A stretch of DNA of 45,339 bases, taken from positions 1 to 45,339 of IMG/VR virus record IMGVR_UViG_3300017782_000037. One strand, written 5' to 3'. Every line of letters begins with the position of its first letter. The stretch's first letter is position 1. The notes under the pieces were generated by a model. That model was not told the origin of the DNA and ran no database searches. It was given only the letters and a program-made list of their open reading frames with translations. Position numbers and translations under genes: made by a program. Below are positions 1,023-38,000 of the stretch, piece by piece. The stretch comes from a virus.

Positions 1023-1240
1023 ACGCTCGCGATGCTCGCGCTGTAATAGACCCCGCCGAAAACCCTAAGCAAAAGCTTCAATCTTCGGTGCAAAACTCAA
1101 AGCAAAAGGCTAAAGCTAAAAGCTAAAAGCTGAAATTAAAGGGGGACTGGGCAAAATGAATTGCGTTTCCGGTAGAAAAAAGTTTTTATAAATAAGCATG
1201 TAGCCCTATACCCCTTATTATGCAATAACAATTTTTACCT

Positions 1241-1274
1241 GTAGCTTTTGGAAAAAACGTGTAATTATATATAA
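1241..1274 (+). promoter_or_regulatory. Rightward promoter-like element, copy 1
   Basis: GTAG, exactly 12 bases, then ACGTGTAATTATATATAA. The same layout recurs at 7866-7900 and 23625-23658. It ends 20 bases before the first gene of the long rightward block, so it probably drives the tail-fibre operon. The ACGTGTAATTATAT core is the most conserved part. The host may read it, but the unusual core could equally serve a phage RNA polymerase or sigma factor. Confidence 0.6.
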
Positions 1275-5351: not shown

Positions 5352-7589
5352 ATGGCAAATATAAAATTTTCAGAATTTACTGAGGCAACTGCAATAGGAG
5401 ACATAGCTTTTGTTGTAGGATATGATGGATCAAATAATAAAAGAATACTAGCGACCGATCTACTTGGGGATTATCTTCCTTTAGCTGGAGGTACAATGAC
5501 TGGTGATACACTCCACGGAGACAACGTAAAAAGCCGGTACAACGGCATGCAAATTTTTAATGATGGAACTGACAGCTTTCTTTATTGTCTAACTGGTAAT
5601 CTTGAGTTTCGAAATTTTGAAAACGGAAAAGATATTACCTTTTTTGCAAATTACAATAATTCTCTTAAGGAATTTATGAGAATTGACGCTAGCGCGAATA
5701 GAATCCTCATTAAAGAAGATACAAATTTTATAGGAGGAACCAAAGCTCTTTTTAATGATAACCTTCGAATTTATAGTTCTGGCAATGACTCTTATATTAG
5801 AGAAAGCGACCTTAATGGTGTTTTATACATTCAGGCAGGAGCTGACTTAAAGCTTCAGAGCGTTTCAAATCCCGCTGAAGATTACATAGTTTGCAATCAA
5901 GATTCTTCAGTAGAATTATATTACGATAACGTTAAAAAACTTGAAACCACTAGTGCTGGAGCAGATATAACAGACACGTTAAGCATATTAGGAGATTCTC
6001 TTAATCCTGGTTTTCTAAAACTATACGCACCTAATTCAGCAAATTACGTAGGTGTTAAAGGACCTGTTAATTCAGGCACCGATTATACATTGAGATTGCC
6101 GAGCGCTTTACCAAGTGTAACTAACCAAATACTAGAGTCGGACGCTTCGGGAACTTTATCTTGGATTGCTACCCCTAGCGGAGGTGGTGGTGGTGCTACA
6201 GAATTAAACGATTTAACAGATTGTTTCGTTGGCTCAACCTCAGACGCAGGGTCATCGTTAGTAAACGTGCCTGCTGGAGGTGTAGGCGGACGTAGTACCA
6301 TAATAGGAAAAAACGCGGGGAATGCTTCTACGTCATCATTAATAGACGCGATTATTATAGGGAATCGGGCAGGCTATAATCAAGCAGGAACTTTTGGGGC
6401 TACATTTATTGGTTCATACGCTGGGTATAATCAAACAAGTACTTCTGCTTTTGCTAATATCTTTATTGGTGAAAAAGCAGGATATGGGGCAGCTAATTCT
6501 ACATCAAGAAATAATGTTGGAATAGGAAAAGATACCTTATTAGCTATAACAAGTGGTCAAAAAAATATAACTATGGGTTATAGAACTATGCGTTTTCTTA
6601 CAACAGGCGGTTCAAATATAGGTATTGGGGTTGAAGCAGGCGAGGGTATTACTACTTCGTACAATAATGTTTGTATTGGACAAGAAACCTTAGAAAACAG
6701 TAATAGTAGTAGTTGTGTTGCTATTGGGCATCAAGCTATGGACACATCTTCCGCTGTCGGTGGTTTCTGCGTAGCTGTAGGCTATCAAGCAGGAAGAAAC
6801 TTTGTTACACAACAGGGGCTAATCGCTATGGGGTATCAAGCATCTTATTCTCATACATCAGGTGCTGATTGTGTCACTATAGGTCGATCTGCGGGATATA
6901 GTAATACTACAGGGCAACACAGGGCAATTCTAGGATCTTTTGCAGCACAATATAATACAGGTAGCGGAAATACAGCAATGGGTTATAATGCTTTAAAGGG
7001 ACCATCCAGTGGAACTGTAAACGGAGGTTATAATGTTGCTATTGGCCGGAATGCCATGGATGTATTAACTACGGGTAGTTTTAATACCGCTATAGGTAAC
7101 GATTCCGCGGAAAATCTTCAAACCGGCTTTTTTAACACATATTTGGGTAGGGATTCTGGTACTGGGCATGTAAATGGAACTAATTGTTCTTTTGTAGGAA
7201 ACGAAGCCGCTCCAAGTACGACCGGCGCAAGTAATGAAATAGTATTAGGTAATGCTTCTATTTCTGCCTTAAGATGTCAAGTAAGCACAATTTCTTCGCT
7301 TTCAGATAGAAGAGATAAAACAAAAATAGAAAATTCTAATTATGGTTTAAATGTAATAGACAAACTTAAACCGGTTACTTTTGATTGGGACACAAGAGAT
7401 GGTGCTAAAGTGGGCATTAAAGATTTAGGATTTATAGCACAAGATCTACAAGAAGTAGATGATGAAAATTTAAAATTAGTATATGGTGCAAATCCAGAAA
7501 AGTTAGAAGCATCTTATGGTAGATTAATACCAGTTTTAGTTAAAGCAATACAAGAATTAAAAGCAGAAATAGAAATATTAAAATCTTAA
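5352..7589 (+). CDS. Tail fibre/spike with YadA-like repeats and C-terminal S74 self-cleaving chaperone
   Basis: A 745-residue fibre. The N-terminus (MANIKFSEFTEATAIGD) differs from the two fibres before it and is followed by LPLAGGTMTG, common in phage fibres. Residues 100-300 are beta-rich. About residues 310-633 are Hep/Hag repeats (NVGIGKDTLLAITSGQKNI type). The end is a peptidase S74 intramolecular chaperone: SDRRDKTKIE starts at residue 651, then GLNVIDKLKPVTFDW, GFIAQDLQ, and a final helix near RLIPVLVKAIQEL. By family knowledge Ser651 and Lys656 would form the cleavage dyad and release the chaperone after trimer folding. Confidence 0.85.
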   Translation: MANIKFSEFTEATAIGDIAFVVGYDGSNNKRILATDLLGDYLPLAGGTMTGDTLHGDNVKSRYNGMQIFNDGTDSFLYCLTGNLEFRNFENGKDITFFANYNNSLKEFMRIDASANRILIKEDTNFIGGTKALFNDNLRIYSSGNDSYIRESDLNGVLYIQAGADLKLQSVSNPAEDYIVCNQDSSVELYYDNVKKLETTSAGADITDTLSILGDSLNPGFLKLYAPNSANYVGVKGPVNSGTDYTLRLPSALPSVTNQILESDASGTLSWIATPSGGGGGATELNDLTDCFVGSTSDAGSSLVNVPAGGVGGRSTIIGKNAGNASTSSLIDAIIIGNRAGYNQAGTFGATFIGSYAGYNQTSTSAFANIFIGEKAGYGAANSTSRNNVGIGKDTLLAITSGQKNITMGYRTMRFLTTGGSNIGIGVEAGEGITTSYNNVCIGQETLENSNSSSCVAIGHQAMDTSSAVGGFCVAVGYQAGRNFVTQQGLIAMGYQASYSHTSGADCVTIGRSAGYSNTTGQHRAILGSFAAQYNTGSGNTAMGYNALKGPSSGTVNGGYNVAIGRNAMDVLTTGSFNTAIGNDSAENLQTGFFNTYLGRDSGTGHVNGTNCSFVGNEAAPSTTGASNEIVLGNASISALRCQVSTISSLSDRRDKTKIENSNYGLNVIDKLKPVTFDWDTRDGAKVGIKDLGFIAQDLQEVDDENLKLVYGANPEKLEASYGRLIPVLVKAIQELKAEIEILKS

Positions 7590-7852: not shown

Positions 7853-7872
7853 AAGCTACTAATCTGTAGCTT
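7853..7872 (+). terminator. Hairpin between the fibre operon and groEL
   Basis: AAGCTAC (7853-7859) and GTAGCTT (7866-7872) are perfect inverted repeats around a six-base loop. The following sequence (TATAAAATT) has no strong U-tract, so termination would be weak. The right arm is also the GTAG part of the adjoining promoter-like element, so terminator and promoter overlap here. Confidence 0.4.
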
Positions 7873-7900
7873 TATAAAATTACGTGTGATTATATAATAA
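7866..7900 (+). promoter_or_regulatory. Rightward promoter-like element, copy 2, ahead of groEL
   Basis: GTAG, 12 bases, then ACGTGTGATTATATAATAA. It matches copies at 1241 and 23625 in order and spacing. It ends 11 bases before the groEL start codon, giving the chaperonin genes their own entry point inside the virion gene block. Confidence 0.6.
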
Positions 7901-7911
7901 AATCTAATTAA

Positions 7912-9450
7912 ATGAATCAAATAGTAAAACAATTTAGCTTTGGTGACAAAGGTAGAGAAAAAGTGTTTAAAGGTATCGAAACACTTACGGAAGCCGTAGC
8001 CTCGACATTAGGAGGAGGAGGCGAATGCGTAATTTTTGAGGATGCCCAGGGAGTGCCTGTAATAACTAAAGATGGTGTAACGGTAGCAGAATTATCTGTA
8101 TTATTAGATCCTGTAGAAAATATGGGCGCATCATTAGTTAAACAAGCAGCAAGAAGAACAGTTGCTGAGGCAGGGGACGGGACTACAACATCTACGGTAT
8201 TAGCTCATGCCATATTAAAGGAGTTTGCTAAGTCGCCTATGAAGTTTACTAGCAGGGAAAAAAGAGATGCAATAAATAATATTGTAGATAAAACTTTAAC
8301 TCACTTAGAAAAGCAAGCTAAACCAGTTAATGGTGATATGATCGACGAAGTGGCTACTATATCTACTAACAATGATGCTGAACTAGGTAAATTAATTGCT
8401 GATGCATACAGAGCTGTAGATTTAACGGGCGTTGTTATGATGGAAACATCACAAGACGGTAATACAAGTATAGAGGTAGTTGAGGGAGTGCAGTATGAAA
8501 AAGGTTTTACTAATAATCATTTTGTAACTAATCACGCAAGCAATACAGTAGAGCTGAATAATCCAAAAATATTATTAGTTGATTCAGCAGTAGACACAAT
8601 TAGACAAATACAAACTATATTAGAACATGTTATAAAAAATAACTTGGCACTACTTATAGTTGGAGACGTTGATCCTAAAGTTGCCGCAGCTCTTGCAATG
8701 AATAAAAACAAAGGTTCTATAAAAGTTAATATAGTTCCAGCGCCTACACATGGGGTTAATAGAAAAGAAATATTTGATGACCTAGCCTTATTAACAGGAG
8801 CAACTGTAGTAAGCGAGAATTTAGGAGATGATTTAGATTTAATTGATTTAGATTGTTTAGGCAATTGCATTAAAGCGGTATCAACATTTAAAGATACAGT
8901 TTTTCAAGTAGCCGAAGAACAATCAGAAGATATTAAACTAATTATTGAAAGTATAAAAGAACAATTGCTTATAGAAAGCAATCCCAACAAAATAGTTAAA
9001 CTTGAAAAAAGATTAGCTATGCTAGCCGCAAAACTTGCAATAGTAAAAGTTGGAGGTAATTCTGAGGTTGAATTAAATGAAAAGAAAGATAGAGTTGAAG
9101 ATGCAATATGCGCAACTAAAGCTGCTATAAAAGAAGGTGTGGTTGCCGGTGGCGGAGTTGCACTAATTAATGCAATCAGAAGTATAAAACCAAAGTCATC
9201 TAGTGAAGAACTAGTTATTGAAGCTTTGTATTATCCTTGCAAAACGATTATGAAAAATGCAGGATTAGAATATGAGCATATAAATAAAAAAGATTTTGGT
9301 GTTAATGTTGAAACTGGAAAAACAGTAAATATGTTTAAAGCAGGTATTATAGATCCTGTGCTAGTTACCAAGTCGGCATTAAAAAATGCTGCCTCAGTTG
9401 CTTCGACTATATTGTCTACCAACTGTGTTATGTCTAACGTAAGAGGATAA
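7912..9450 (+). CDS. groEL: Phage GroEL-type chaperonin (60 kDa family)
   Basis: At 512 residues it is slightly shorter than bacterial GroEL (about 548) and aligns over its length. The equatorial nucleotide site is present: ITKDGVTVA near residue 55, AGDGTTT with Asp89 (E. coli Asp87), and VEDAICATKAAIKEGVVAGG with Asp397 (E. coli Asp398, the ATPase base). The apical domain carries LLIVGDV and IVPAPTHG. The Gly-Gly-Met tail of bacterial GroEL is missing. It should form an ATP-driven folding chamber with the GroES encoded immediately after it, perhaps for capsid or fibre subunits; the substrate is inference. Confidence 0.93.
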   Translation: MNQIVKQFSFGDKGREKVFKGIETLTEAVASTLGGGGECVIFEDAQGVPVITKDGVTVAELSVLLDPVENMGASLVKQAARRTVAEAGDGTTTSTVLAHAILKEFAKSPMKFTSREKRDAINNIVDKTLTHLEKQAKPVNGDMIDEVATISTNNDAELGKLIADAYRAVDLTGVVMMETSQDGNTSIEVVEGVQYEKGFTNNHFVTNHASNTVELNNPKILLVDSAVDTIRQIQTILEHVIKNNLALLIVGDVDPKVAAALAMNKNKGSIKVNIVPAPTHGVNRKEIFDDLALLTGATVVSENLGDDLDLIDLDCLGNCIKAVSTFKDTVFQVAEEQSEDIKLIIESIKEQLLIESNPNKIVKLEKRLAMLAAKLAIVKVGGNSEVELNEKKDRVEDAICATKAAIKEGVVAGGGVALINAIRSIKPKSSSEELVIEALYYPCKTIMKNAGLEYEHINKKDFGVNVETGKTVNMFKAGIIDPVLVTKSALKNAASVASTILSTNCVMSNVRG

Positions 9451-9451
9451 T

Positions 9452-9712
9452 ATGAATGCAATAGGTAGAAACATAATAATAAAAAAATTAAAAGAAGGTG
9501 TTACTAAAACTAAAGGCGGGTTGCTTTTAGCTGAGAATCACCGAGAAGATATAAGATACGTAGAAGCTACGGTAGTGTCTACAGGATCTGAATGTGACGG
9601 AATAAATAAAAATGATGTAATATATTACGATCGTCATGCGGGTCACAAAATAGAGCTTGATAAAGAAACATATCACGTTATTAAGGCTCAAGACGTAGTA
9701 TTTGTTTTATGA
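9452..9712 (+). CDS. groES: Phage GroES-type co-chaperonin
   Basis: The 86-residue product has the Cpn10 layout: an initial strand (GRNIIIKKL), a mobile loop with KTKGGLLLAEN at about residues 20-30 that should dock on GroEL, an AEVV-type strand (VEATVVSTGSECDG), NKNDVIYYDRHAG, and a final strand ending DVVFVL. It is a little short of bacterial GroES (about 97). It begins one base after the groEL stop codon and shares ATGA with the next gene, so the three are translationally coupled. Confidence 0.85.
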   Translation: MNAIGRNIIIKKLKEGVTKTKGGLLLAENHREDIRYVEATVVSTGSECDGINKNDVIYYDRHAGHKIELDKETYHVIKAQDVVFVL

Positions 9713-10155
9713 GAGAGTTAACTGGCCAAAAGTTAAAAGAAATAGGTCTGTTAAAACATTATAGAGTAATACGAAGATGGGCTTGTAAAAAAACCGGATT
9801 AACTGATGCAGATTTAGAATTACTAATATATTTTGATTGTTTAGGTAACTTTACAAGAAAAGACTTTGAAGATGGTATTTTAATTTATTCTTGGGATAAT
9901 AGAAGATGGAATAGATTACTAAAAGAAGGTTGGATAGTTAAATGGAGAGGTTATAATGGAGCAGATAAAAGCTATAGTATATATCAGGTTAGTTTACAAA
10001 CAAAAAATATAATACAACAGATTTATAGAATAATGCTTGGGACAGAGGATATACCAACTTCTACAAGACGCAACCCAGCAATGAAAAGAATTTCCTACAG
10101 TGATAAAACTTTAGCCACTGCTATAGGAAAGATTAATAAAGATAAAACAAGATAA
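9709..10155 (+). CDS. Putative winged-helix (MarR-like) protein
   Basis: This 148-residue basic protein has a helix-rich first half (LTGQKLKEIGLLKHYRVIRR...LTDADLELLIYFDCLGNFTRKDF) followed by WNRLLKEGWIVKWRGYNGADKSYSIYQVS. That is the order expected of a winged helix: recognition helix, then a two-strand wing with charged tip. DNA binding and a role in late transcription are inferences. Its start overlaps the GroES stop, placing it in the chaperonin operon. Confidence 0.5.
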   Translation: MRELTGQKLKEIGLLKHYRVIRRWACKKTGLTDADLELLIYFDCLGNFTRKDFEDGILIYSWDNRRWNRLLKEGWIVKWRGYNGADKSYSIYQVSLQTKNIIQQIYRIMLGTEDIPTSTRRNPAMKRISYSDKTLATAIGKINKDKTR

Positions 10156-14376: not shown

Positions 14377-14604
14377 ATGGGTAATATTATAAGAAAGATA
14401 AGTATAGGTGCTGACTACAAGAACGAAGCAATGCATTACTCTGTTAAGCAGACAGTTTATGGTGGGCACGAAATTTCTCATATAATATTTGAAGAGTCTG
14501 ATAATTCTTATAATATATTTATAAAAAAAGAAGACGAGGTAATGCCATGGAAGAAGTTTAATTCTAACATGGCAATATCCGTTGAGTATGACTTGGAGTA
14601 CTAA
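14377..14604 (+). CDS. Hypothetical 75-residue protein
   Basis: The product (MGNIIRKISIGADYKNEAMH...) has alternating strands such as HEISHIIFEE and YNIFIKKEDEVMPWKKF. It follows the coiled-coil gene by four bases, and its TAA shares the A with the next start codon. No catalytic motif is visible. It is part of the run of genes leading to the terminase. Confidence 0.6.
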   Translation: MGNIIRKISIGADYKNEAMHYSVKQTVYGGHEISHIIFEESDNSYNIFIKKEDEVMPWKKFNSNMAISVEYDLEY

Positions 14605-15209
14605 TGAGAAGTATATACGATTTTATCATAAAGCCGGTAGGCCAAAGATATGATAATACGGTAAAGGTTGGGGAAGTGAACCTTGTGACCAACACTTCTA
14701 TAGAAAGTTTTAAGCACGTTAATAATATAGCGGAAGTTGTAGAAACCCCAGCGGCATTTGCAACACCCATAAAAAAAGGTGATCTAATTGTAGTGCATCA
14801 TAACGTGTTTAGAGTTTTTTATGATATGAAAGGACTTAAAAAAAATAGTAGATCGTTTCTTAAAGACGGACTTTTTATGTGTGCAATAGATCAAATATAT
14901 TTGTACAAGAATAAGAAGAAGTGGAAATCATTTGGCGATAGATGCTTTGTTGCTCCGGTCAAAAACAAAGACCCTTTTAGTAGCGATAAAACAGCTAGTC
15001 TTATTGGTATACTAAAAATAGGTAATAAGTCCTTAAAACGTGCTGGAATCAATCCAGGGGACATAATTGGATTTACACCAAATAGCGAATGGGAATTTGT
15101 TATAGATAATCAAGTTATGTATTGTATGAAATCAAATGATATTGTTATAAAGTATGAGCTCGATAGAAACGAAGAAGAATATAATAGCGGCTGGGCGCGA
15201 AGCAATTAA
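14604..15209 (+). CDS. Putative tandem GroES-like protein
   Basis: This 201-residue protein seems to be two GroES-type barrels. The first half has YDFIIKPVGQ, a loop (VNLVTNTSIESFKHVN), a VVETPAAFATPI strand, KKGDLIVVHH and DQIYLYK. The second repeats the plan with DRCFVAPV, GINPGDIIGF, and DIVIKYE. The order of strands and the (K/P)-GD-(L/I)-I turn match Cpn10 proteins. If right, this is a second co-chaperonin separate from the GroEL/GroES operon, placed next to the terminase genes. A structural protein with a similar barrel is the alternative. Confidence 0.5.
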   Translation: MRSIYDFIIKPVGQRYDNTVKVGEVNLVTNTSIESFKHVNNIAEVVETPAAFATPIKKGDLIVVHHNVFRVFYDMKGLKKNSRSFLKDGLFMCAIDQIYLYKNKKKWKSFGDRCFVAPVKNKDPFSSDKTASLIGILKIGNKSLKRAGINPGDIIGFTPNSEWEFVIDNQVMYCMKSNDIVIKYELDRNEEEYNSGWARSN

Positions 15210-15426
15210 AGAATTAGTAAAGGTAGCAAAAGAAAAGATCGTTGACTCAGAAGAAGATATATCTGCTGACAGACTTAAAAATGCTGCCGCTACTAAAAAG
15301 CTTTGCATATTTGACGCTTTTGAAATATTAAATAAGATTCAAGAAGAAGAGCAGATGATTGCGAATTCTAATGATAAAGAAAGTAAGCCTAAATTCAAAG
15401 GGTTTGCAGAGGGGAGATCTAAGTAA
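15154..15426 (+). CDS. Candidate terminase small subunit
   Basis: The 90-residue protein is helical and starts MSSIETKKNIIAAGREAIKE, with DISADRLKNAAATKKLCIFDAFEIL in the middle and a disordered C-terminus (KPKFKGFAEGRSK). Its position directly before TerL (ATG overlapping by one base) and its length fit a small terminase of this kind of phage. No helix-turn-helix motif can be proved. The start lies 56 bases inside the previous gene, as expected for a coupled operon. Confidence 0.55.
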   Translation: MSSIETKKNIIAAGREAIKELVKVAKEKIVDSEEDISADRLKNAAATKKLCIFDAFEILNKIQEEEQMIANSNDKESKPKFKGFAEGRSK

Positions 15427-17636
15427 TGGCTTACGAACAAACATTATATAAAATTACAAAAGATTATATAAAACCTTCTGTGATTAGTAAAAAAAATCGC
15501 TATGCCAAATGGGAATACGGTTATAACAAAGAACACGATGTTGTTGTAATTAGTAAAACCGGAAAGATAGGCGATATATACGAAATTGGTAATGTAATGA
15601 TTGCATTACCCAAGACAGAAAGTGCAAAAGACCTAGGAGAAAATAAGTGGAAAGCCACTGAGTATCCTAAGTTATTAAAAAAAATTAAAAGTGTCCAGGA
15701 TTGGAATGCTTATCCCAATAGTTTTAAAGAGCAATGGCATCCATATATAGATGAAGAATTTGAAAGACGTGAAAAAGGGTTTTGGTTTATTAATAAAGGC
15801 AAGCCTACTTACATTACTGGCACTCACTACATGTACCTGCAGTGGTCCAAAATTGATGTCGGATTACCGGACTTTAGGGAATCAAATAGATTGTTCTATA
15901 TATTCTGGGAAGCCTGCAAAGCGGATTCAAGATCGTACGGTATTTGTTACCTTAAAAATCGACGCTCTGGATTTTCATTCATGTCGTCGGGAGAAACAGT
16001 TAATTCAGCTACGATATCTTCAGACTCTAGATTCGGCATACTATCCAAATCAGGGGCTGATGCTAAAAAAATGTTTACGGATAAAGTTGTACCAATCTCG
16101 GTAAACTATCCGTTTTTCTTTAAGCCAATACAAGACGGGATGGACCGTCCGAAAACAGAGTTAGCTTACAGAGTGCCTGCTTCTAAATTTACAAGACGTA
16201 AGTTAGAAGATAATCAAATGGCTACTGAGCTTGACGGGCTAGACACAACTATTGATTGGAAAAATACAGGTGATAATAGTTATGATGGTGAAAAATTAAA
16301 GTTACTTGTTCATGATGAATCAGGAAAATGGGAAAGACCTACAAATATACTTAACAACTGGCGAGTAACTAAAACTTGTTTAAGATTAGGTAGTAGAATT
16401 ATTGGCAAATGCATGATGGGATCAACATCAAACGCTTTAGATAAAGGGGGTAAAAACTTTAAAAAATTGTACGATGGTTCAGATACCTTGTTAAGAAATA
16501 AAAATGGACAGACTAAAACAGGTTTATATAAACTGTTTATTCCTATGGAATGGAATTATGAGGGTTTTATTGATCAGTACGGTTATCCTGTGTTTGATAC
16601 TCCAAAAAAAGAAACGTTAGATCCACAAGGAAATTTAATTACAGAGGGTGTAATACAACACTGGGAAAATGAGGTTGATGGATTAAAAGATGATGCCGAT
16701 GCATTAAACGAATATTATCGGCAGTTTCCAAGAACAGAGCAACATGCTTTTAGAGATGAAGCTAAACAATCTATTTTTAATTTAACAAAAATTTATCAAC
16801 AAATAGATTACAACGAAGAATTAAAAAATTCTGCCATGGTTACTCAAGGTAACTTTCAATGGGAAAACGGTATTAAAGACACCAAAGTAATGTTCTATCC
16901 AAATAAAAATGGTAGATTTTTTATTACTTGGGTACCAGATCAAGAACAACAAAATAACTTAATAATAAAAAATGGTATTAAGTATCCTGGCAACGAACAT
17001 TTGGGGGCTTTTGGATGTGATAGCTATGACATTAGCGGTGTTGTTGGTGGCGGCGGCTCTAACGGATCGCTTCATGGATTAACAAAATTTTCTATAGAAA
17101 ACGTACCTCCTAATCATTTTTTTCTTGAATATATTGCAAGACCTTCAACAGCAGAAATGTTTTTTGAAGATGTGCTTATGGCTTTAGTATTTTATAGTAT
17201 GCCTTTATTAGCAGAAAATAATAAACCTCGATTACTTTATTATTTAAAACGTAGAGGATATAGAGGATTTAGTATTAATAGGCCCGATAAAACATACAAC
17301 AAATTGTCATTAGCGGAAAGAGAAGTAGGTGGTATACCTAATTCAAGTGAAGATATAAAACAAGCGCATGCTTCTGCTATAGAAACATATATAGAAGATT
17401 TTGTAGGAGAAAAAAAAGATGGTTATGGCGATATGTATTTGCAAAGAACTTTAGAAGATTGGGCTAAGTTTGATATAAATAATAGAACCAAGCATGATGC
17501 TTCTATAAGTTCGGGGCTAGCTTTAATGGCTTGTAATAAGCATAGGTATAATCCTAAAAGTATAACTAAAATTAAATCGTATTCTTTAGGTTTTAAAAAA
17601 TATAACAACGAGGGAACTACTTCAAAAATAATATAA
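15426..17636 (+). CDS. terL: Terminase large subunit (packaging ATPase-nuclease)
   Basis: At 736 residues this is the size usual for this phage group. A TerL-type Walker A region is placed at KNRRSGFS (residues 177-184), after YGICYL. Walker B is KLLVHDE with Asp297 and Glu298. The C-terminal nuclease begins near residue 528 (GAFGCDSYDISG, with Asp532 and Asp535 as likely metal ligands); a further acidic residue may come from the C-terminal DINNRTKHDASIS segment. It should cut and pump DNA into proheads through the portal encoded immediately downstream. Confidence 0.9.
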   Translation: MAYEQTLYKITKDYIKPSVISKKNRYAKWEYGYNKEHDVVVISKTGKIGDIYEIGNVMIALPKTESAKDLGENKWKATEYPKLLKKIKSVQDWNAYPNSFKEQWHPYIDEEFERREKGFWFINKGKPTYITGTHYMYLQWSKIDVGLPDFRESNRLFYIFWEACKADSRSYGICYLKNRRSGFSFMSSGETVNSATISSDSRFGILSKSGADAKKMFTDKVVPISVNYPFFFKPIQDGMDRPKTELAYRVPASKFTRRKLEDNQMATELDGLDTTIDWKNTGDNSYDGEKLKLLVHDESGKWERPTNILNNWRVTKTCLRLGSRIIGKCMMGSTSNALDKGGKNFKKLYDGSDTLLRNKNGQTKTGLYKLFIPMEWNYEGFIDQYGYPVFDTPKKETLDPQGNLITEGVIQHWENEVDGLKDDADALNEYYRQFPRTEQHAFRDEAKQSIFNLTKIYQQIDYNEELKNSAMVTQGNFQWENGIKDTKVMFYPNKNGRFFITWVPDQEQQNNLIIKNGIKYPGNEHLGAFGCDSYDISGVVGGGGSNGSLHGLTKFSIENVPPNHFFLEYIARPSTAEMFFEDVLMALVFYSMPLLAENNKPRLLYYLKRRGYRGFSINRPDKTYNKLSLAEREVGGIPNSSEDIKQAHASAIETYIEDFVGEKKDGYGDMYLQRTLEDWAKFDINNRTKHDASISSGLALMACNKHRYNPKSITKIKSYSLGFKKYNNEGTTSKII

Positions 17637-21231: not shown

Positions 21232-22230
21232 ATGAGTTTATTACCACAATTTGGGGCAATAGTCCCTTCGCAAACACAATCAGTACTTGCGACAAATTAT
21301 TTGCAATGGAATAACAACGGGGGAGCCGCTGGAATCCCAGGAAACTTTGCTGACTTTGCTCAGCAGTATTTACCAGAAATCTACGAATCAGAAGTAGAGC
21401 GTTATGGAAACAGAACGTTATCTGGATTTTTAAGAATGGTTGGTGCTGAAATGCCAATGACATCTGATCAAGTTATTTGGTCTGAACAAAATCGTTTACA
21501 TATATCGTACGATAACGTAGCGGGTACAGGTGGTGGAGCTGGAACAGGCTTGTTAATACCAGTTGCTGCAGGAATTGTAAATGTAATATCTATTAATGAT
21601 ACAATTGTTATTCTTGACCCTGCAACGGGAACAGAGGCAAAAGGTATTGTTACAGCTTCAGGTGCTGCTGCAGGAAACGGAACTTTAACAGTTCAGCTTT
21701 ATAGCGGATTAACCATAGGGGCGACTTTTGGAGCAAATGCACCAGGTCTTAAGATATTTGTTTATGGATCTGATTATTCTAAAGGAACTACAATTGGAGC
21801 TGGCGCTGGAAACTCAGCGGCTAGAGTAAGTGTAGAGCCTGTATTAACGCAATTTTCTAATTCTCCAATCATTATTAGAGATCAGTATGTTGTATCTGGA
21901 TCAGATACTGCACAGATCGGATGGGTGAATGTAGCAACTGAAGATGGAACTGACGGATACCTTTGGTATTTGAAAGCTGCTTCAGAAACTCGCTTGCGTT
22001 TTGAAGATTACTTAGAAATGGCAATGGTAGAAGGTGAATTAAACCAAAACGCAGGAGCGGGAGCAAATCAAAATTTACTTCAGCCAGGAACACAAGGTTT
22101 ATTTGCTGCTATCCAAGCTCGAGGAAACGTAGAAACTGGATTTACTGCAGCTCAAGGATTAACTGAGTTTGATGCAATTCTTAAAAACCTTGATACTCAG
22201 GGGGCAATTAAGAAAACATGTTATTCTTAA
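21232..22230 (+). CDS. Major capsid protein, N-terminal two-thirds (frame broken)
   Basis: These 332 residues start MSLLPQFGAIVPSQTQSVLA and contain YLPEIYESEVERYGNRTLSG and LRMVGAEMPMTSDQVIWSEQ, a segment I associate with HK97-fold major capsid proteins of crAss-like and other marine Bacteroidetes phages. The frame ends in KKTCYS at 22230, mid-domain, and the missing part continues in the minus-one frame. With the next entry it makes about 490 residues, normal for the family. No slippery heptamer exists in the allowed window 22212-22227, so a one-base deletion (real or in the assembly) is more likely than programmed frameshifting. Confidence 0.85.
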   Translation: MSLLPQFGAIVPSQTQSVLATNYLQWNNNGGAAGIPGNFADFAQQYLPEIYESEVERYGNRTLSGFLRMVGAEMPMTSDQVIWSEQNRLHISYDNVAGTGGGAGTGLLIPVAAGIVNVISINDTIVILDPATGTEAKGIVTASGAAAGNGTLTVQLYSGLTIGATFGANAPGLKIFVYGSDYSKGTTIGAGAGNSAARVSVEPVLTQFSNSPIIIRDQYVVSGSDTAQIGWVNVATEDGTDGYLWYLKAASETRLRFEDYLEMAMVEGELNQNAGAGANQNLLQPGTQGLFAAIQARGNVETGFTAAQGLTEFDAILKNLDTQGAIKKTCYS

Positions 22231-22700
22231 ACCGTCAAACTGCTTTAGACTTTGATGATATGCTAGCAAGCATCTCTTCAGGAGTTTCAGGTGGGGTTGC
22301 TTTTGGGTTATTTGAAAATTCAGAGGACATGGCACTTAACTTAGGATTCAGTGGGTTCCGTAGAGGATCTTATGACTTTTACAAAACAGATTGGAAATAC
22401 TTAAATGATGCGTCTACTCGTGGAGCAATCAATGGTGTTAATTCAATCGAAGGTGTATTAGTACCTGCTGGAACTTCAACTGTTTATGATCAAGTTTTAG
22501 GAACTAACATTCGTCGTCCATTTTTGCACGTACGATACAGAGCTTCTCAAACTGATGATCGTAGAATGAAGTCTTGGTTGACTGGATCAGTAGGGGGTGG
22601 AACAGGATCTACTCTTGATGCAATGGAAATTAACTTCTTATCAGAAAGATGTTTAATTACTCAAGGAGCTAATAACTTCGTATTATTTAGAGGAATCTAA
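22218..22700 (+). CDS. Major capsid protein, C-terminal third (frame broken)
   Basis: The 160 residues read MLFLNRQTALDFDDMLASIS and run to NNFVLFRGI. They carry GVNSIEGVLVPAGTSTVYDQ and VRYRASQTDDRRMKSWLTGS, the usual C-terminal part of this capsid protein. The ATG at 22218 is only where the frame happens to hold a Met; it has no leader of its own and overlaps the upstream frame by 13 bases. One extra base near 22210-22216 would join both parts, for example giving GAIEENMLFLN. Confidence 0.85.
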   Translation: MLFLNRQTALDFDDMLASISSGVSGGVAFGLFENSEDMALNLGFSGFRRGSYDFYKTDWKYLNDASTRGAINGVNSIEGVLVPAGTSTVYDQVLGTNIRRPFLHVRYRASQTDDRRMKSWLTGSVGGGTGSTLDAMEINFLSERCLITQGANNFVLFRGI

Positions 22701-23625: not shown

Positions 23626-23658
23626 TAGTTTTTAAAAAAAACACGTAATTATATTATA
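23625..23658 (+). promoter_or_regulatory. Rightward promoter-like element, copy 3, ahead of the connector genes
   Basis: GTAG, 12 bases, then ACACGTAATTATATTATA. It begins at the last base of the previous stop codon. Copies at 1241 and 7866 share the order and exact spacing. It is about 67 bases upstream of the next start codon, with a hairpin between. Confidence 0.55.
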
Positions 23659-25865: not shown

Positions 25866-26357
25866 ATGGCTCAACAAATAAAAAATACGTTTCTAAAGTC
25901 TAAGATGAATAAAGATCTTGACGATAGAATATTACCTAATGGGGAATACAGAGACGCTAGGAATATATCCGTAGGTAGATCTGAAGACGACGACGTAGGC
26001 GCTCTTGAAAATATAATAGGAAATAATTTAATAGCTACTACAAATATAAGTAACGACGTTTCTATTATAGGAATCAAAGAAAACAATGCCACTGATCAAT
26101 TGTTTATTTTTTTAACGGACTATACTGATCCAGATCCGTCTAACCCCACAGATGCTCCTATAGGAACTGAACATTACATATATGTTTATAATAATAAAAC
26201 TCAAGAATATAGAGCGCTTGTTAGAGGAGAATTTTTAAATTTTTCAACAACAAATAATATAATAGGAATAAATTTGATTGAAAACTTATTGTTTTGGACT
26301 GATAATAGAAATCAACCTAGGAAAATCAACATTAACTTAGCTAGCGTAGCTGACTAA
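25866..26357 (+). CDS. Stabilisation-type tail protein, N-terminal piece
   Basis: The 163 residues include NTFLKSKMNKDLDDRILP and continue with NGEYRDARNISVGRSEDDD, a signature start of crAss-like stabilisation (muzzle-type) proteins. The product stops at a TAA (26355) exactly where the family normally continues, and reading beyond it is open in the same frame for the next 1400 codons. Either a real gene split or a single stop codon inside one long gene. The next gene has an ATG only four codons after the stop. Confidence 0.7.
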   Translation: MAQQIKNTFLKSKMNKDLDDRILPNGEYRDARNISVGRSEDDDVGALENIIGNNLIATTNISNDVSIIGIKENNATDQLFIFLTDYTDPDPSNPTDAPIGTEHYIYVYNNKTQEYRALVRGEFLNFSTTNNIIGINLIENLLFWTDNRNQPRKININLASVAD

Positions 26358-26369
26358 TATAATAAAATT

Positions 26370-29300
26370 ATGGGAGGTACAGCAGCCGAAGATTATTACA
26401 CGCAGGAACATCAAATATCTGTAGCCAAATATAGTCCTTATCAAGCAATAAAACTATACAATAGAATAGATATTGAAATTGACGGGTCAAGTACTACTTA
26501 TTTTTCAATTGACGGAGATTTAAAAAGCTCCATAGAACCATTTATTGGGGCTACAGTGGTGTCTTCCGAACAAAGTCCTAGTATAACCGGATTAGATCAT
26601 ATAAAAGTAACGGGAGTTCAATATGTTACACAATTTGACGAAACCAGAGTGGACGTTTCTCCTTCTTTTAATGCTGCCTTAACTCCTAATACTTACGTGT
26701 CCTTAATTTTGTCTACAATGACTAATAAAAAGGACGAGCCTTCTTGGCCAGGTGATCCAGACTTTTTAGAGGATAGATTTGTTAGATTTAGCTATAGGTT
26801 TAAGTACGATGACAACGAGTATTCTTTAATGGCTCCATTTACTCAAATAGCTTTTATACCTAAGCAAAAAGGATACTTTTTAAATGGGGATGAAGACTTA
26901 GCTTATCAATCGACCATTGTTCCTTTTATGGAAAACAACGTTCAGAATATTGGACTAGTAATACCTTTGCCTACTAGCGGAGCTAGAATAGCTAACGATT
27001 ACAAAATAAAAGAAGTAGAAATACTATTTAGAGAAAGTGACGGCGTAGCAGTTAAAGTTTTAGAAAGTATTTCAGCGGGATCAATAGCCGGAGAGAGCGG
27101 TATTAACAACTATTATACTTATGATTATCAGTCTCGCAAACCATATAAAACATTACCGGAAGCTCAAACAACTAGAGTTTATGATAAAGTGCCGGTAAGA
27201 GCTTTTTCTCAAGAAAGTTCAGGAAATAGAATTATATATGGCAACTATAGAGATCAACATACTCCTCCTCCAAATATAAATTATAATTGTAGAATATCTC
27301 AAAAAAGTACTACAGGCAAATACAATAATTGGATAGAATACCCTAATCATTCTGTAAAAAGAAATAGAAATTACCAAGTAGGATTTGTATTAGCTGATAA
27401 ATTTGGCAGACAATCTCCTGTTATATTATCTTCTGTAGATAAAGGAGCCGTTAGTGATGGACAATTTTATTTTGGGTCTACAATATATAGTCCTTACGAC
27501 GATGTAGCTAGCGATACCGACGTTAAAAATTGGTTTGGTGATTCTATAATGGTTTTAGTAAATTCAGAAATAAGCTCTATTAAAAATCTAGCAGCAGGTA
27601 CACCGGGACTTTATGCTGTAAAACAAGATGCAGGGTCTGGTAATGGGGAAGGCTATGCGGTAACTTTATCTGGTAATACTATAAATGGTAATACATACGG
27701 ATTCAGACTTAGTGTTGTCCCCCCTAATGATAATAATAATAATATACCCAGGGTTGGAGATTACCTAAGGGGGGCCTATCAAGACTTTGTTGAAGTTCTG
27801 ACAGTAACAGAAACTAATCCCGCTACAAATCAATGGGAGGCAACCACCGATGGGCAAGTTAACGACGTCTATCTAAGAGCCGACAATTTACCTCCTAATA
27901 CTCCAGATTTAAAATTTGCTTATACTATAAATGATTTAGGATGGTATAGTTATAAAATAGTTGTAAAACAAACACAGCAAGAATATTACAACGTATATCT
28001 GCCTGGAATACTTAATGGTTATCCAGGACAATCAGGAGCACTTAATGGGCCTCAACACCAGGCTAATCCTGGAGGAATTGACAACGGTTTATTCCCTATA
28101 AACGAAACAAACAAAACTGCATTTACAGTTTTATTTAATGATAATATAAATAAAATACCTAGGGATTTAGCTGAAGTAGGTCCAGATGAAAAACAGTATA
28201 GAAGTTCTGTAGTTTTATATGGTAGGGTAACTAATATAATGACCGTAGGCACTTATGATACAGGGACAGGTATTTCTAATTCAGTTCCTTTTAATAGTCA
28301 ATATTACGCTAGAGTAAATTCCGAAGGCAAAACCGCAATTTCGCACACATCGACAGCTATAGCTAGAGCTAAAGAAGTTAATATGGGATTTTCGGATTTA
28401 TCTACAGATAATGATCAATTGTACGATCCTTTAGAAGCATTTAATACAGGTGCTGTTAATGGCAATAAAGTTTTTTATCAAATAGATACAAACCCTTTAA
28501 TATGTAGAATATCTACTCCAGAAAGATCAATAGGCGCTACCGCTTTAAATTTTGTTTTAGAGGAACAAACTCCTCCAACCCCTCCTACCCCCGCGGATAA
28601 TCTAAACAATCCTTTGAACACTTCAAATATGCTACCTTACTTAGCAATATATGAAACTGAACCTATTGAATCTTTATTAGATATTTTTTGGGAAACTACA
28701 AGTGAGGGTTTAATTGTTGATTTAAATGCAGATGTTCTTTCAGGAGGAGGAGGAGCTACATCTTTTATAAATTTAGATTGGGATTTTACGGAGGCAACAT
28801 TAACAAATACTTTTGTAACTCAATTTTTTCAGCCTGTAAATGCTTCTGGACAAGAATTTGCAGTGCCTACCACAGCTCAGTTAATTTCAACAAAAAATGG
28901 AAACAACGAAGTAGTGGATGGATTATTCCAATTACATTCAGGAACAGGGGTTGATGCCGGTAAATACAAAATAAAATATATAGGAGCAACTCCTTTAGTT
29001 TTTGTGGATTCCAGTCGAATTACCGACGTATATTCTTTTGTAATAAGAGTAACAACAGATGATTTAGAGGTTACTGATATAGATGTACCTGGACAAGTAG
29101 CAGGTTTTGGTGCTTTAAAAAATTTAAACCCTACAATAGCAGCTGGAATTCCTGCTACATCTACAACTAGAGAGACTAGAGTAATAATACCAGGTTACAA
29201 TGAGCAAGACAGTCCTTGGCCTACCGCAGACCCTAAAAATGGGACTGCAAGTTCTAGCGACACATTGCAATTAAATTATACAATACAAAATCCTCAGGAT

Positions 29301-30689
29301 TTACCAGATAATTGGGAAATGAATTCTGCTACCGGTGAACTTACTCAAGCAGTACCTGGCGATGTAATTGATGGAGTTACGTTTGGAGGGAATACTTCTG
29401 CTCTTTATAATATTACAATACGCGTGACAGATGCAAATGGAGATTCTAATTTACCTAGTAATGATCCTTATGGAACTTTGTATGTTGAATTTACTACTCC
29501 TATAACTCTTGGATATGCAGTGGTTAACGAGGAAGTGCTTAGCGAAACTTGTGTGGTTGCGCCAACTTTTGGAACTTCCCCAGAATTTATATACACTACT
29601 AATCCGTTTAATAATACTCCACAGATTATAACGGGTTTATGGTATATATCCGCCGGGATTTCTCCAACTGACTTTTATTTAAATATTACAAATGATGATC
29701 CTGTTTTTGATGCTATCATTCCGCCTGGTAATGAGTGGAATAGAATTGGAACAGACTGTCATAAATCAGGAGTTATAGCTATAACTGCAAACCTTAGACA
29801 AGAAAATGAACCAAGTCAAGGCTTAAATCAGTCCAATATTGCAGTAAGAGATATACAATATTACTATAGATACGTTTTTGCTGATGAGACCACTTCTGAT
29901 TGGAATTTTATTCCAAAAGGAGCAGAATATAATAAGTCCGTAGTTCAAACGCCTAACTGGAATGCTCCTCAATTTCTTGCGCCGAACGGACCAACCGGAT
30001 CTCAGAATTCTTGGGCTACTTTGTCTGGACAAATTGGCGGGATAGAGACACATAAAAGTGTTCAAACTTTAAGATGTTTTGATTACTTAGCAGTAACGGA
30101 AAACAGTAATGCCGTAGGAGTCGAATATGTTTTTATAATTAAGGAGTTTAAACAAACAACAGGAGATACAGCTTTGTATCCAGGCATAGGGTGGATTAAT
30201 TGTGCTGATTTACATTATCCAAAATGTGTTCCATGGCAAGGTGTTAATATAGCGCCTGATCAAACATGGGGTGATAATAACGAGTATCAATATTTTAGGT
30301 CTGCTCCTGGAAGCAATAGCGTAAATGAGGAGCCTATGACAACGAATGTTTTGTATGCTGAAACTCCTTATGCAGAATATGTTAATCAATTTTTTACAGA
30401 TACCCAAATGCAAGTTCCTTATGTACCCCCCGCAGAAACCCCTTATATAGGAGTTCAGCTTAACCGTGCGTACGTAGATTTACCAGTAGCGCCTGATAAT
30501 CTTACAGATTGGAAGGGAGTAGATTTATTAGAAGCAACATTCTCATTAGAGTTAGACCAGTCTGGTGTTAGGGTAACAAATCCAGTACAGGAGCGCGTTA
30601 ATACAGGGGCTACTTTTATAAATTATCAAGGCACTGAAACAACTGGTGACCAAAAATCCGGATTTAATAGAATAAAAACACCTGTATAA
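26370..30689 (+). CDS. Stabilisation-type tail protein, central piece, 1439 residues
   Basis: It starts MGGTAAEDYYTQEHQISVAK and the segment QISVAKYSPYQAIKLYNRID continues the domain of the previous piece. Residues up to about 700 are beta-rich with FRYSFRYKFDDNEYSLMAPF-like strands (here FVRFSYRFKYDDNEYSLMAP); about 700-1080 look like inserted Ig-like or cadherin-like beta modules (TVTDANG-type NITIRVTDANGDSN). The end reads GFNRIKTPV, after which the family continues in the next ORF but in another frame. No TM segment. It probably forms part of the tail nozzle. Confidence 0.65.
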   Translation: MGGTAAEDYYTQEHQISVAKYSPYQAIKLYNRIDIEIDGSSTTYFSIDGDLKSSIEPFIGATVVSSEQSPSITGLDHIKVTGVQYVTQFDETRVDVSPSFNAALTPNTYVSLILSTMTNKKDEPSWPGDPDFLEDRFVRFSYRFKYDDNEYSLMAPFTQIAFIPKQKGYFLNGDEDLAYQSTIVPFMENNVQNIGLVIPLPTSGARIANDYKIKEVEILFRESDGVAVKVLESISAGSIAGESGINNYYTYDYQSRKPYKTLPEAQTTRVYDKVPVRAFSQESSGNRIIYGNYRDQHTPPPNINYNCRISQKSTTGKYNNWIEYPNHSVKRNRNYQVGFVLADKFGRQSPVILSSVDKGAVSDGQFYFGSTIYSPYDDVASDTDVKNWFGDSIMVLVNSEISSIKNLAAGTPGLYAVKQDAGSGNGEGYAVTLSGNTINGNTYGFRLSVVPPNDNNNNIPRVGDYLRGAYQDFVEVLTVTETNPATNQWEATTDGQVNDVYLRADNLPPNTPDLKFAYTINDLGWYSYKIVVKQTQQEYYNVYLPGILNGYPGQSGALNGPQHQANPGGIDNGLFPINETNKTAFTVLFNDNINKIPRDLAEVGPDEKQYRSSVVLYGRVTNIMTVGTYDTGTGISNSVPFNSQYYARVNSEGKTAISHTSTAIARAKEVNMGFSDLSTDNDQLYDPLEAFNTGAVNGNKVFYQIDTNPLICRISTPERSIGATALNFVLEEQTPPTPPTPADNLNNPLNTSNMLPYLAIYETEPIESLLDIFWETTSEGLIVDLNADVLSGGGGATSFINLDWDFTEATLTNTFVTQFFQPVNASGQEFAVPTTAQLISTKNGNNEVVDGLFQLHSGTGVDAGKYKIKYIGATPLVFVDSSRITDVYSFVIRVTTDDLEVTDIDVPGQVAGFGALKNLNPTIAAGIPATSTTRETRVIIPGYNEQDSPWPTADPKNGTASSSDTLQLNYTIQNPQDLPDNWEMNSATGELTQAVPGDVIDGVTFGGNTSALYNITIRVTDANGDSNLPSNDPYGTLYVEFTTPITLGYAVVNEEVLSETCVVAPTFGTSPEFIYTTNPFNNTPQIITGLWYISAGISPTDFYLNITNDDPVFDAIIPPGNEWNRIGTDCHKSGVIAITANLRQENEPSQGLNQSNIAVRDIQYYYRYVFADETTSDWNFIPKGAEYNKSVVQTPNWNAPQFLAPNGPTGSQNSWATLSGQIGGIETHKSVQTLRCFDYLAVTENSNAVGVEYVFIIKEFKQTTGDTALYPGIGWINCADLHYPKCVPWQGVNIAPDQTWGDNNEYQYFRSAPGSNSVNEEPMTTNVLYAETPYAEYVNQFFTDTQMQVPYVPPAETPYIGVQLNRAYVDLPVAPDNLTDWKGVDLLEATFSLELDQSGVRVTNPVQERVNTGATFINYQGTETTGDQKSGFNRIKTPV

Positions 30690-35098: not shown

Positions 35099-38000
35099 AT
35101 GTATACATATATCATAGACAATAAAAAAGTAACATTTAAAAATTGGGACGAAGTCTCTTCCGCTTTAGATGAAGCAGAAAAAAATGGATTAACCGCTGAA
35201 TATGTTGATTATGAAGAAGGTTTGGACGGGCCTAAAACGGAGGAACAAACAAAAGCCGCCGAAGAAAAAAGTATTATACCAAAAGTTCCTTTTCTACCAG
35301 ATGCTGCAGAGAGTGCGGATGTAGTGTCGAAGACTCAAGCACAAGATACGGACTCACGATCGGAAGACTCTTCTTCGGGTTCACGATACATAAGATTTAA
35401 AAGCGGTACAATAATATACGAGGATGACTATGTACAAAACTATGCTGATACGGAAAATTATCCCAAGTCATTTGATGACTACGCTTTAAAATTCGGTGGC
35501 AAAGTTCAAAAGGTAGAAGAATCAGTTGTTGAGGGAGGTGAACTTGATCCCGTTTATATCAGCGCAGGACCTCAATCTTATGTTACTGAATTAGAAGGAC
35601 TAAACGAATTTGGAGAAATTACAGACGGTCAAGTAACGATAGATTATGATAGCTTAGCAAAAGAAAACGGTTTTGAAAGTGCAGCGGAGGCTTATGCAGA
35701 AACCGAGCCAAAAAGAGAAATGCTAAATGTATTTGAACCTAATAATGTAATTACCGATAGAAAAGGTAATGTAACCACTAGATTCAAATATGTAGAATAT
35801 GAGGATGATACACCTGAAAAGAAAAAATATTTACGCGAACAGAAAGAAGCTACAGACTATGCAGTAAGATTAGCTCTTAACAATACCAAATTTTCTACAA
35901 ATGATATTACTGATGTAAACACCTTTAATAAAGAAGTTTTTAATCCTGAGTATCTTTCAGAGCAGGCTAAATATTTGGAAAAAGCACTGCCCCAACTTAA
36001 TTTATATCAAGCAGAGCTTGCAGCTTCTAATTATAATAATGCTAAGTTGCAACTGCTAAAAAATAAAGAGCTAGACGAGAGTGAAGAAGCTATTAATATT
36101 CTGCAAGAAGATAAGAAGTATACAGCAGTTATGAATCTTTATGAGTCTGAAGCTCTTAATAATTTACCTAAAGCCGGAAAAGAATTAGGTGTTGCGAAAA
36201 ATAAACTTGAAGAAGCAAAAACTAATTTAAAAACAATTGATCCTAACGCGAGGGCTATTGATTATACTACGCAAGTAAGAAAAATTAACGACTATAAAGA
36301 ACAATTACAAAAAGCTATTGAGGCTTACAGTAATCAAACGCCTTTTGATTATGATAGTGAGGGTAACTTTAAATTAAAAGATCCAGAGGCTCCTATTATA
36401 ACAGATCTTGATTATAACATATTAACTCCTCAGGAAGTAGAAATTGCTAAAAGTAACGGGCAAACTCTTCTTATTGAAAATGAAAGATATAAATATAATT
36501 TAGATAGAGCTTCGCAATGGAATGATCGTGAAACTATAAAAAACAATTTTCTTTTAACTAGCATTGATAATAATAAATACACTGCAAAAGGCGAAGAAAT
36601 TTATTATATTAAAACTACATCACCATTATCAGATCCTCAGTTAGCCGGATTTGCAGATACACTTGAAGAAGATTCACCTACTAATTTGGAATACCTGGGT
36701 TACACTAAGTCCGGAGAACGTTTTTCAAAACGGCGTAAAAAAGATGGAGAGTATAGAGCTTATACGCTTAGAGAAATATCTAATGCTATCAATGAAGGAG
36801 ATTGGAGTATAGATAGAATTAAATTTAAAGATGGCAAGCCTGAAGGCTTTAACACCGATAGGGACTTTTCTAGATTTAGTATGGATTATGCTGACACAAA
36901 AATGATGCTTCCTATAGTTACTGATATGTACGTGCTAGGACTGGATCCTGGTACACAAGGTGAAGATACTGGCATAAATATGGCTGGAGCTTTTACTGAT
37001 GAACTATTAGAAAATTCTTGGGGTTTATTTGGAGATGGATTGGAAACTACAAGAGAAAAGAAAGATGCTCAAAGATTTACACTTGAAAAAATAGGGTTGC
37101 CAGAAACGGAGTCAATGAAAAAATCTTTTGAAAGAGGATTTATGATGAGACTTAGCGAGAGTGCAGGGGCATTCGTACCTGTTTTAGGGGAATTTAGTGT
37201 TGCTACCGCTTTAACAGGAGGAGTTGGTAATGTATTAGGAACTGGTAGGTTTATAAAAACAGCATTTTCAGGAGGTAAAAATTTAGGTAAAGCGGCGCAG
37301 GGTGCTTGGAAATCTAGCTATTGGGGTAGAAATCCTAGAGCCGCTAAATTTGCCGCTCACATGCTAAAATTTGGTGAAGAGGAAATAAAGTTTTCAATGG
37401 TAGCCCGGGGCGAGAACACTCTTGGCTCAGGTGGTGCTTTTTACTTAGGCGGTTTACTAACGCAAAGACTTGTTCCATTTAGATTTAATAGAAAATATAA
37501 TTGGGCTAATTTTGGTAATAAAGTCTTAGAAAAGGTTGTTCTAACCGGAGTGGGAGGGGCTAGTTCTTCAGAACTTTCTCATTTATCAGAAGCTTTTTAT
37601 AAAGAATTCACAGGAGATAAATCTCTTAAAACTTCTATGGACGAATTTTGGGGGGACGAGGCAGAAACTATGACTAGATGGTCTATTAACTTAATGCAAT
37701 TTTCGTTTTTAGGCGGTACTAAAATGAAAAAATGGGATTGGGTAGCTGAGTCAACTGTTCAAAAGCTTAACAATAAATATATTAAGCAAAGAAATAAAGC
37801 TTTAAGTGAGGGTAAAGATGTTGAAAAACTAAACCAAAAAATATACGAAACGGATAAAATTTTAGAATTAGGTAAAACTGAAGTTCAAAAATCTGATGTG
37901 ATGGCGTTGCAAGAGGAAATTAATAAAATTGAAAAAGACGTAAATTCAGGTAAACTAAGTTATTCAGAGCGCCAAGACGCTATGAACAGAAGAATTGCTA

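Follow-up and report, generated by a model that had tools for sequence, protein, structure and literature searches.

T4 gp31 and RB49 CocO are phage-encoded co-chaperonins, and to our knowledge T4 has neither a GroEL of its own nor a tandem lid. The gp31 protein has the GroES fold. It is devoid of the roof loops of GroES (PMC6318259), and the absence of these loops is thought to aid in enclosing the ~56 kDa capsid protein, gp23 (PMC6318259). Other phages, namely EL, OBP, and AR9, encode GroEL-like chaperonins that are independent of a co-chaperonin, some of them working as single rings (PMC5934643, PMC9598537). In the chloroplast, single and tandem co-chaperonins are found in one compartment, i.e., Cpn10 and Cpn20, represented in Chlamydomonas by CPN11, CPN20, and CPN23 (PMC5780408, PMC8889267), and a mixed seven-domain lid has been proposed for them (PMC5780408).

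The phages that come closest to the locus described herein are podophages of Flavobacteriaceae. Three of them, phi38:1, Elemovirus, and Panino, likewise combine GroEL with a single GroES and, ahead of the terminase, a tandem "cpn10". One study described 36 genomes from this Flavobacteriaceae phage group as carrying GroEL (Nishimura 2017, PMC5332604), another listed "chaperonin cpn10" as a core protein of the Pervagoviridae (Bartlau 2021, PMC8776804), and Panino was described with both GroEL and GroES (PMC11590407). As far as the literature covered shows, phage GroEL/GroES pairs are known from sequence and none with its own lids has been characterized; we found no biochemistry on any member of this GroEL clade. 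None of this literature, to which the viral-chaperonin survey of Marine et al. 2017 did not belong, mentions a tandem makeup of the second cpn10. A GroEL/GroES pair of this kind is already known; the two-lid set, if confirmed, would be a novel variation on it.

The DNA analyzed (the window), a single IMG/VR virus record with a length of 45,339 bases, belongs to a marine tailed phage. Tail-fibre-like genes are followed by the chaperonin genes, then by small genes, and finally by the terminase, portal, capsid, and virion genes. No replication genes were recognized in the 45,339-base window, which is probably a fragment, its relatives reaching 50-68 kb. The nearest annotated record is podovirus MW202828 from Manatee Spring (63% terminase identity), followed by Flavobacterium Elemovirus, Cellulophaga phi38:1 (Pervagoviridae), and Maribacter phage Panino. 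Judging from these relatives, the host most likely belongs to the Flavobacteriaceae. Gene order and distances in phi38:1, Elemovirus, and Panino differ from those in the window (in phi38:1, for example, Cpn10 lies upstream of GroEL), and the GroELs of Panino and elemo are ~35-39% identical to that of the window. The features concerned, all on the plus strand, are as follows.

1239..1271, + strand: second copy of the promoter-like element, an exact match, upstream of the 1295 gene block
7864..7911, + strand: conserved promoter-like element (core 7864-7896) and AT-rich groEL leader
7912..9450, + strand: groEL, 512 aa, group I chaperonin whose clade is virus-only, GGM tail absent, inter-ring segment shortened
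9452..9712, + strand: groES, 86 aa, single-domain co-chaperonin, roof hairpin absent, mobile loop kept
9709..10155, + strand: 148-aa gene, PHROG 17028, winged-helix-like by eye, 4-nt overlap with groES
14604..15209, + strand: second co-chaperonin, 201 aa, apparently two GroES domains in tandem, immediately ahead of the terminase genes
15154..15426, + strand: 90-aa ORF lying between the tandem gene and TerL, candidate small terminase by position
15426..17636, + strand: terminase large subunit (TerL), PHROG 6681 (E 2e-162)
21232..22700, + strand: major capsid protein gene, PHROG 13704, frameshift at ~22218, candidate client

An earlier note on this DNA had described a complete GroEL/GroES pair. 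Its coordinates are correct and both genes are intact, groEL matching PF00118 (E 4e-51) and PHROG 5725 (E 2.5e-130), and groES, which starts one base past the groEL stop, matching PF00166 (E 2e-12) and PHROG 3188. The pair is not the whole system, however: the tandem co-chaperonin at 14604-15209, overlooked in that note, belongs with it. The PF00118 match (174.6 bits against a cut-off of 34.3) spans positions 1-488 of the 490-position profile, as expected of a full-length three-domain Cpn60. When aligned with the E. coli protein, the ATP-site aspartates Asp54, Asp89, and Asp397 correspond to Asp52, Asp87, and Asp398, so that Asp89 and Asp397 are intact as had been claimed, and Lys53, the Gly-Asp-Gly-Thr-Thr motif (GDGTT, 89-92), and Gly414 (E. 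coli G415) are kept as well. Alignment likewise agrees with the earlier remark that the GGM tail is missing: it is absent from the window GroEL and throughout the group (24/24 viral GroELs), while 26 of the 31 bacterial GroELs in the same alignment end in a Gly/Met-rich tail.

Relative to E. coli, the apical groove retains F204 and L237 and carries the changes L234Q, Y203H, L259A, V263A, and V264M; client and lid binding may therefore differ. Among the inter-ring residues, R452 is replaced by Lys, E461 is kept, and the positions of E434 and of S463/V464/N467 are deleted, a pattern from which ring number is not readable. Judging from these replacements and deletions, both the client range and the ring number of the phage GroEL may differ from those of the E. 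coli protein.

The 86-aa GroES is, like gp31 and CocO, a phage co-chaperonin. The mobile loop that had been ascribed to it was found as TKGGLLLAEN, with the hydrophobic tripeptide inside GGLLL. Its AlphaFold model (pLDDT 80) is an ordered barrel in which pLDDT drops below 50 at residues 21-24 alone, inside the mobile loop, and Foldseek matched this model to Cpn10s (down to 2e-6) and also to gp31 structures. The roof segment comprises 6 residues in the window GroES and in 86 of 95 viral GroES, whereas that of E. coli has 15 and those of most bacteria have either 10 or 15. Thus, the single GroES is a gp31-type lid without the roof hairpin, although the mobile loop of gp31 is longer.

We propose that these genes encode a virus-adapted group I chaperonin for the folding of virion proteins, closed by roofless and tandem lids, and give this reading a probability of roughly 0.65. 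GroEL (7912-9450) would assemble into heptameric rings and there take up and enclose phage proteins as they are made, in an ATP cycle that resembles the one known from bacterial GroEL. The cage would be closed by two kinds of co-chaperonin, a roofless single-domain GroES made beside GroEL, and the tandem GroES (14604-15209) made just ahead of the terminase, portal, and capsid genes. From its position and size, the main client is probably the major capsid protein (~53 kDa), which like T4 gp23 comes close to the largest protein that the bacterial cage can take. We presume that the assembly works. GroEL of phi38:1 was detected by mass spectrometry in infected cells and in free-virion samples, alongside the capsid protein (PMC13288928), which shows expression, not function. 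The chaperonins of EL, OBP, and AR9, which function without a co-chaperonin (PMC5934643, PMC9598537), count against the proposal; the window carries two co-chaperonin genes.

The least certain step of the proposal is how the single and tandem lids combine; it is possible that they act separately, or as a mixed seven-domain lid like that proposed for chloroplast Cpn10/Cpn20. A more explicit version, which we hold only tentatively, is that the two form one seven-domain lid (for example, three tandem and one single) that evolved independently, resembles the chloroplast lid, and is tuned to the capsid protein, phi46:3 putting the same pair on host GroEL. The fit of a tandem lid to a seven-fold ring has also been raised as a question for chloroplast Cpn20. 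The stable three-gene set of GroEL, roofless GroES, and tandem GroES is found in cultivable Flavobacteriaceae phages (phi38:1, Calle, Elemovirus, and Panino), and therefore offers a testable system for client choice by lids and for a tandem lid on a seven-fold ring.

A codon comparison with five relatives gave dN/dS values of 0.02-0.16 for groEL, groES, and the tandem gene, which are therefore functional genes. The three also belong with one another. Every one of the 18 tandem-gene loci that extend 9.5 kb or more upstream has groEL and groES as well, and both families are present in 19 of 20 records searched whole, the exception being a tandem gene 3.4 kb from a contig end. In isolates, the counts agree (77/77 records), as a comparison of totals and not of every record. 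The complete genome of Cellulophaga phage phi46:3 (Pachyviridae) contains the tandem and single GroES and is devoid of GroEL. Thus, the pairing of single and tandem lids may predate or outlast phage GroEL, that is, it may be the older or the more stable arrangement.

Phage phi46:3 also lends weight to a different reading, in which the co-chaperonins chiefly re-programme host GroEL, with the phage GroEL as an accessory back-up; T4 gp31, too, acts on host GroEL (PMC6318259). We consider this unlikely, since in the window's group groEL always accompanies the lids, since in most comparisons purifying selection is stronger on groEL than on the other two genes, and since its apical groove is unlike those of the compared Flavobacteriaceae GroELs, which fits co-adapted lids. 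With its two lids and no GroEL, phi46:3 provides a natural contrast by which the question of host versus phage GroEL is directly testable.

The part of the preferred reading that depends on the second lid rests on the identity of the 201-aa protein, relatives of which are encoded in more than 590 IMG/VR stretches. It matches PHROG 13932, "co-chaperonin GroES" (E 4e-24), and its homologues in phi38:1 and phi46:3 score above the cut-off of PF00166. By hhalign profile comparison with bacterial GroES, the C-half matched at 95% (P 2.6e-8; 2.8% for a reversed control), and the N-half weakly, at 17% (P 0.0014). An AlphaFold model of the protein has a pLDDT of 82 and a pTM of 0.75, and its top PDB match in Foldseek, over the whole length, was 7ekq_R (206 columns, TM 0.56/0.57, rmsd 6.6). 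Entry 7ekq is listed as a Chlamydomonas (chloroplast) ClpP complex, and chain R, judged from its length, is presumably CPN20 or CPN23. A co-chaperonin heterotetramer of CPN11, CPN20, and CPN23 has been described on that ClpP complex (PMC8889267). When the 201-aa profile was searched against PDB chain sequences, nothing credible emerged (the best hit, at E 0.033, was an unrelated acyltransferase), and the tandem assignment therefore rests on the profile-profile comparison, on PF00166 in the relatives, and on structure. The sole Pfam match of the 201-aa protein, a sub-threshold one of its C-half to Peptidase_S24, was rejected as a chance or fold-level match. The protein thus looks like a tandem two-domain GroES, in which the N-half, not recognized as such by sequence, is assigned as a GroES domain from the predicted structure. 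Although such a set of single and tandem co-chaperonins resembles that of the chloroplast, no close sequence relationship is detectable between the phage tandem protein and those of the Cpn20 type, and the phage C-half has no clear mobile loop in the window's clade.

This lack of a recognizable loop is one of the points in favor of a further alternative, that the 201-aa protein is a GroES fold re-used in packaging or head assembly, for instance as a partner of the terminase, and no longer a co-chaperonin. Its gene immediately precedes the terminase genes in every annotated genome examined that has it, and chloroplast CPN11/20/23 also binds ClpP, so that partners other than GroEL are possible (PMC8889267). 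However, a single GroES accompanies the 201-aa gene wherever the available sequence suffices, the C-half of the phi46:3 protein, which is above the PF00166 cut-off, retains a loop-like stretch, and 49 sequences share a candidate loop region in the N-half, together with its L-I/V hydrophobic step. Re-use of the fold therefore appears improbable, somewhat more so than action on host GroEL.

The origin of the GroEL itself was addressed by phylogeny. The retrieved set of 52 IMG/VR loci consists mostly of sequences 80-100% identical, and GroEL matches were obtained in 278 phage records, all at less than 60% identity; the statement that only a few phages carry GroEL is therefore wrong, and for this same Flavobacteriaceae-phage group GroEL had been reported in 2017 (PMC5332604). 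When 31 bacterial GroELs were included in the trees, the window protein fell in a clade of 19 viral GroELs with an SH-aLRT of 100, whether or not long-branched phage sequences are included; these are quick trees, in which the branch of the clade is long and the exact position of the root unsure. The highest identity to any compared bacterial GroEL is ~42%, and plasmid GroELs are no nearer than bacterial ones. The earlier note had named placement within the host's own copy as a refuting outcome, and the pair survives this check. A recent capture from the host, or contamination of the assembly with bacterial DNA, can be set aside with near certainty, because trees of this kind do reveal capture where present (the GroEL of Bacteroides phage DAC16 groups near Paludibacter, and those of Vibrio phages near E. 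coli) and place the window protein in the virus-only clade rather than inside the Flavobacteriaceae GroELs, because its identity to bacterial proteins is low, because the groEL-groES order is the opposite of that in E. coli, and because the chaperonin genes are syntenic with virion genes in more than 40 contigs. The same synteny bears on the earlier view that paired operons inside a virion block are unusual: in this phage group, proximity to virion genes is the rule.

The promoter-like element ahead of groEL, also proposed earlier, is real as a conserved element. The pattern CTGTAGCTTT-N8-ACGTGTRATTATATA occurs exactly twice in the window, at 1239-1271 and 7864-7896, with 0 expected from 100 shuffles. 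About two dozen close relatives, in which the DNA further upstream diverges, keep a slightly relaxed form ahead of groEL, and relatives at ~60% identity have a groEL leader different from that of the window. A generic sigma-70 scan gave no better result than shuffled sequence. A promoter would be the natural reading of the element at 7864-7896. A weak third copy, with 3 mismatches, lies at 23641-23657, ahead of the 23690 gene.

Several other observations concern the neighboring genes. The 148-aa gene at 9709-10155 accompanies the chaperonin genes in the relatives examined, even where orientation differs. At the position equivalent to that of the 90-aa ORF (15154..15426), phi46:3 has an ORF of 99 aa. 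Upstream of groEL, and separated from it by one small gene, 5352-7589 encodes a tail-fibre-like protein of 745 aa, the C-terminal part of which is an intramolecular chaperone (Peptidase_S74). The major capsid gene (21232-22700) is broken into two overlapping frames at ~22218, whereas its relatives have one ORF of ~450-500 aa; the split probably reflects an indel in the assembly or a true mutation in a single virus. The gene for a large virion protein at 25866-30689 is split by an in-frame TAA (26355-26357), with an ATG 12 nt further, and the matching gene is one long gene in the more distant relatives MW202828 and phi38:1; this split may be either natural or an error. Finally, 35099-44584 forms one ORF of 3161 aa, for which Pfam gave no match, and MW202828 has a comparably giant gene at the same end of its virion block.
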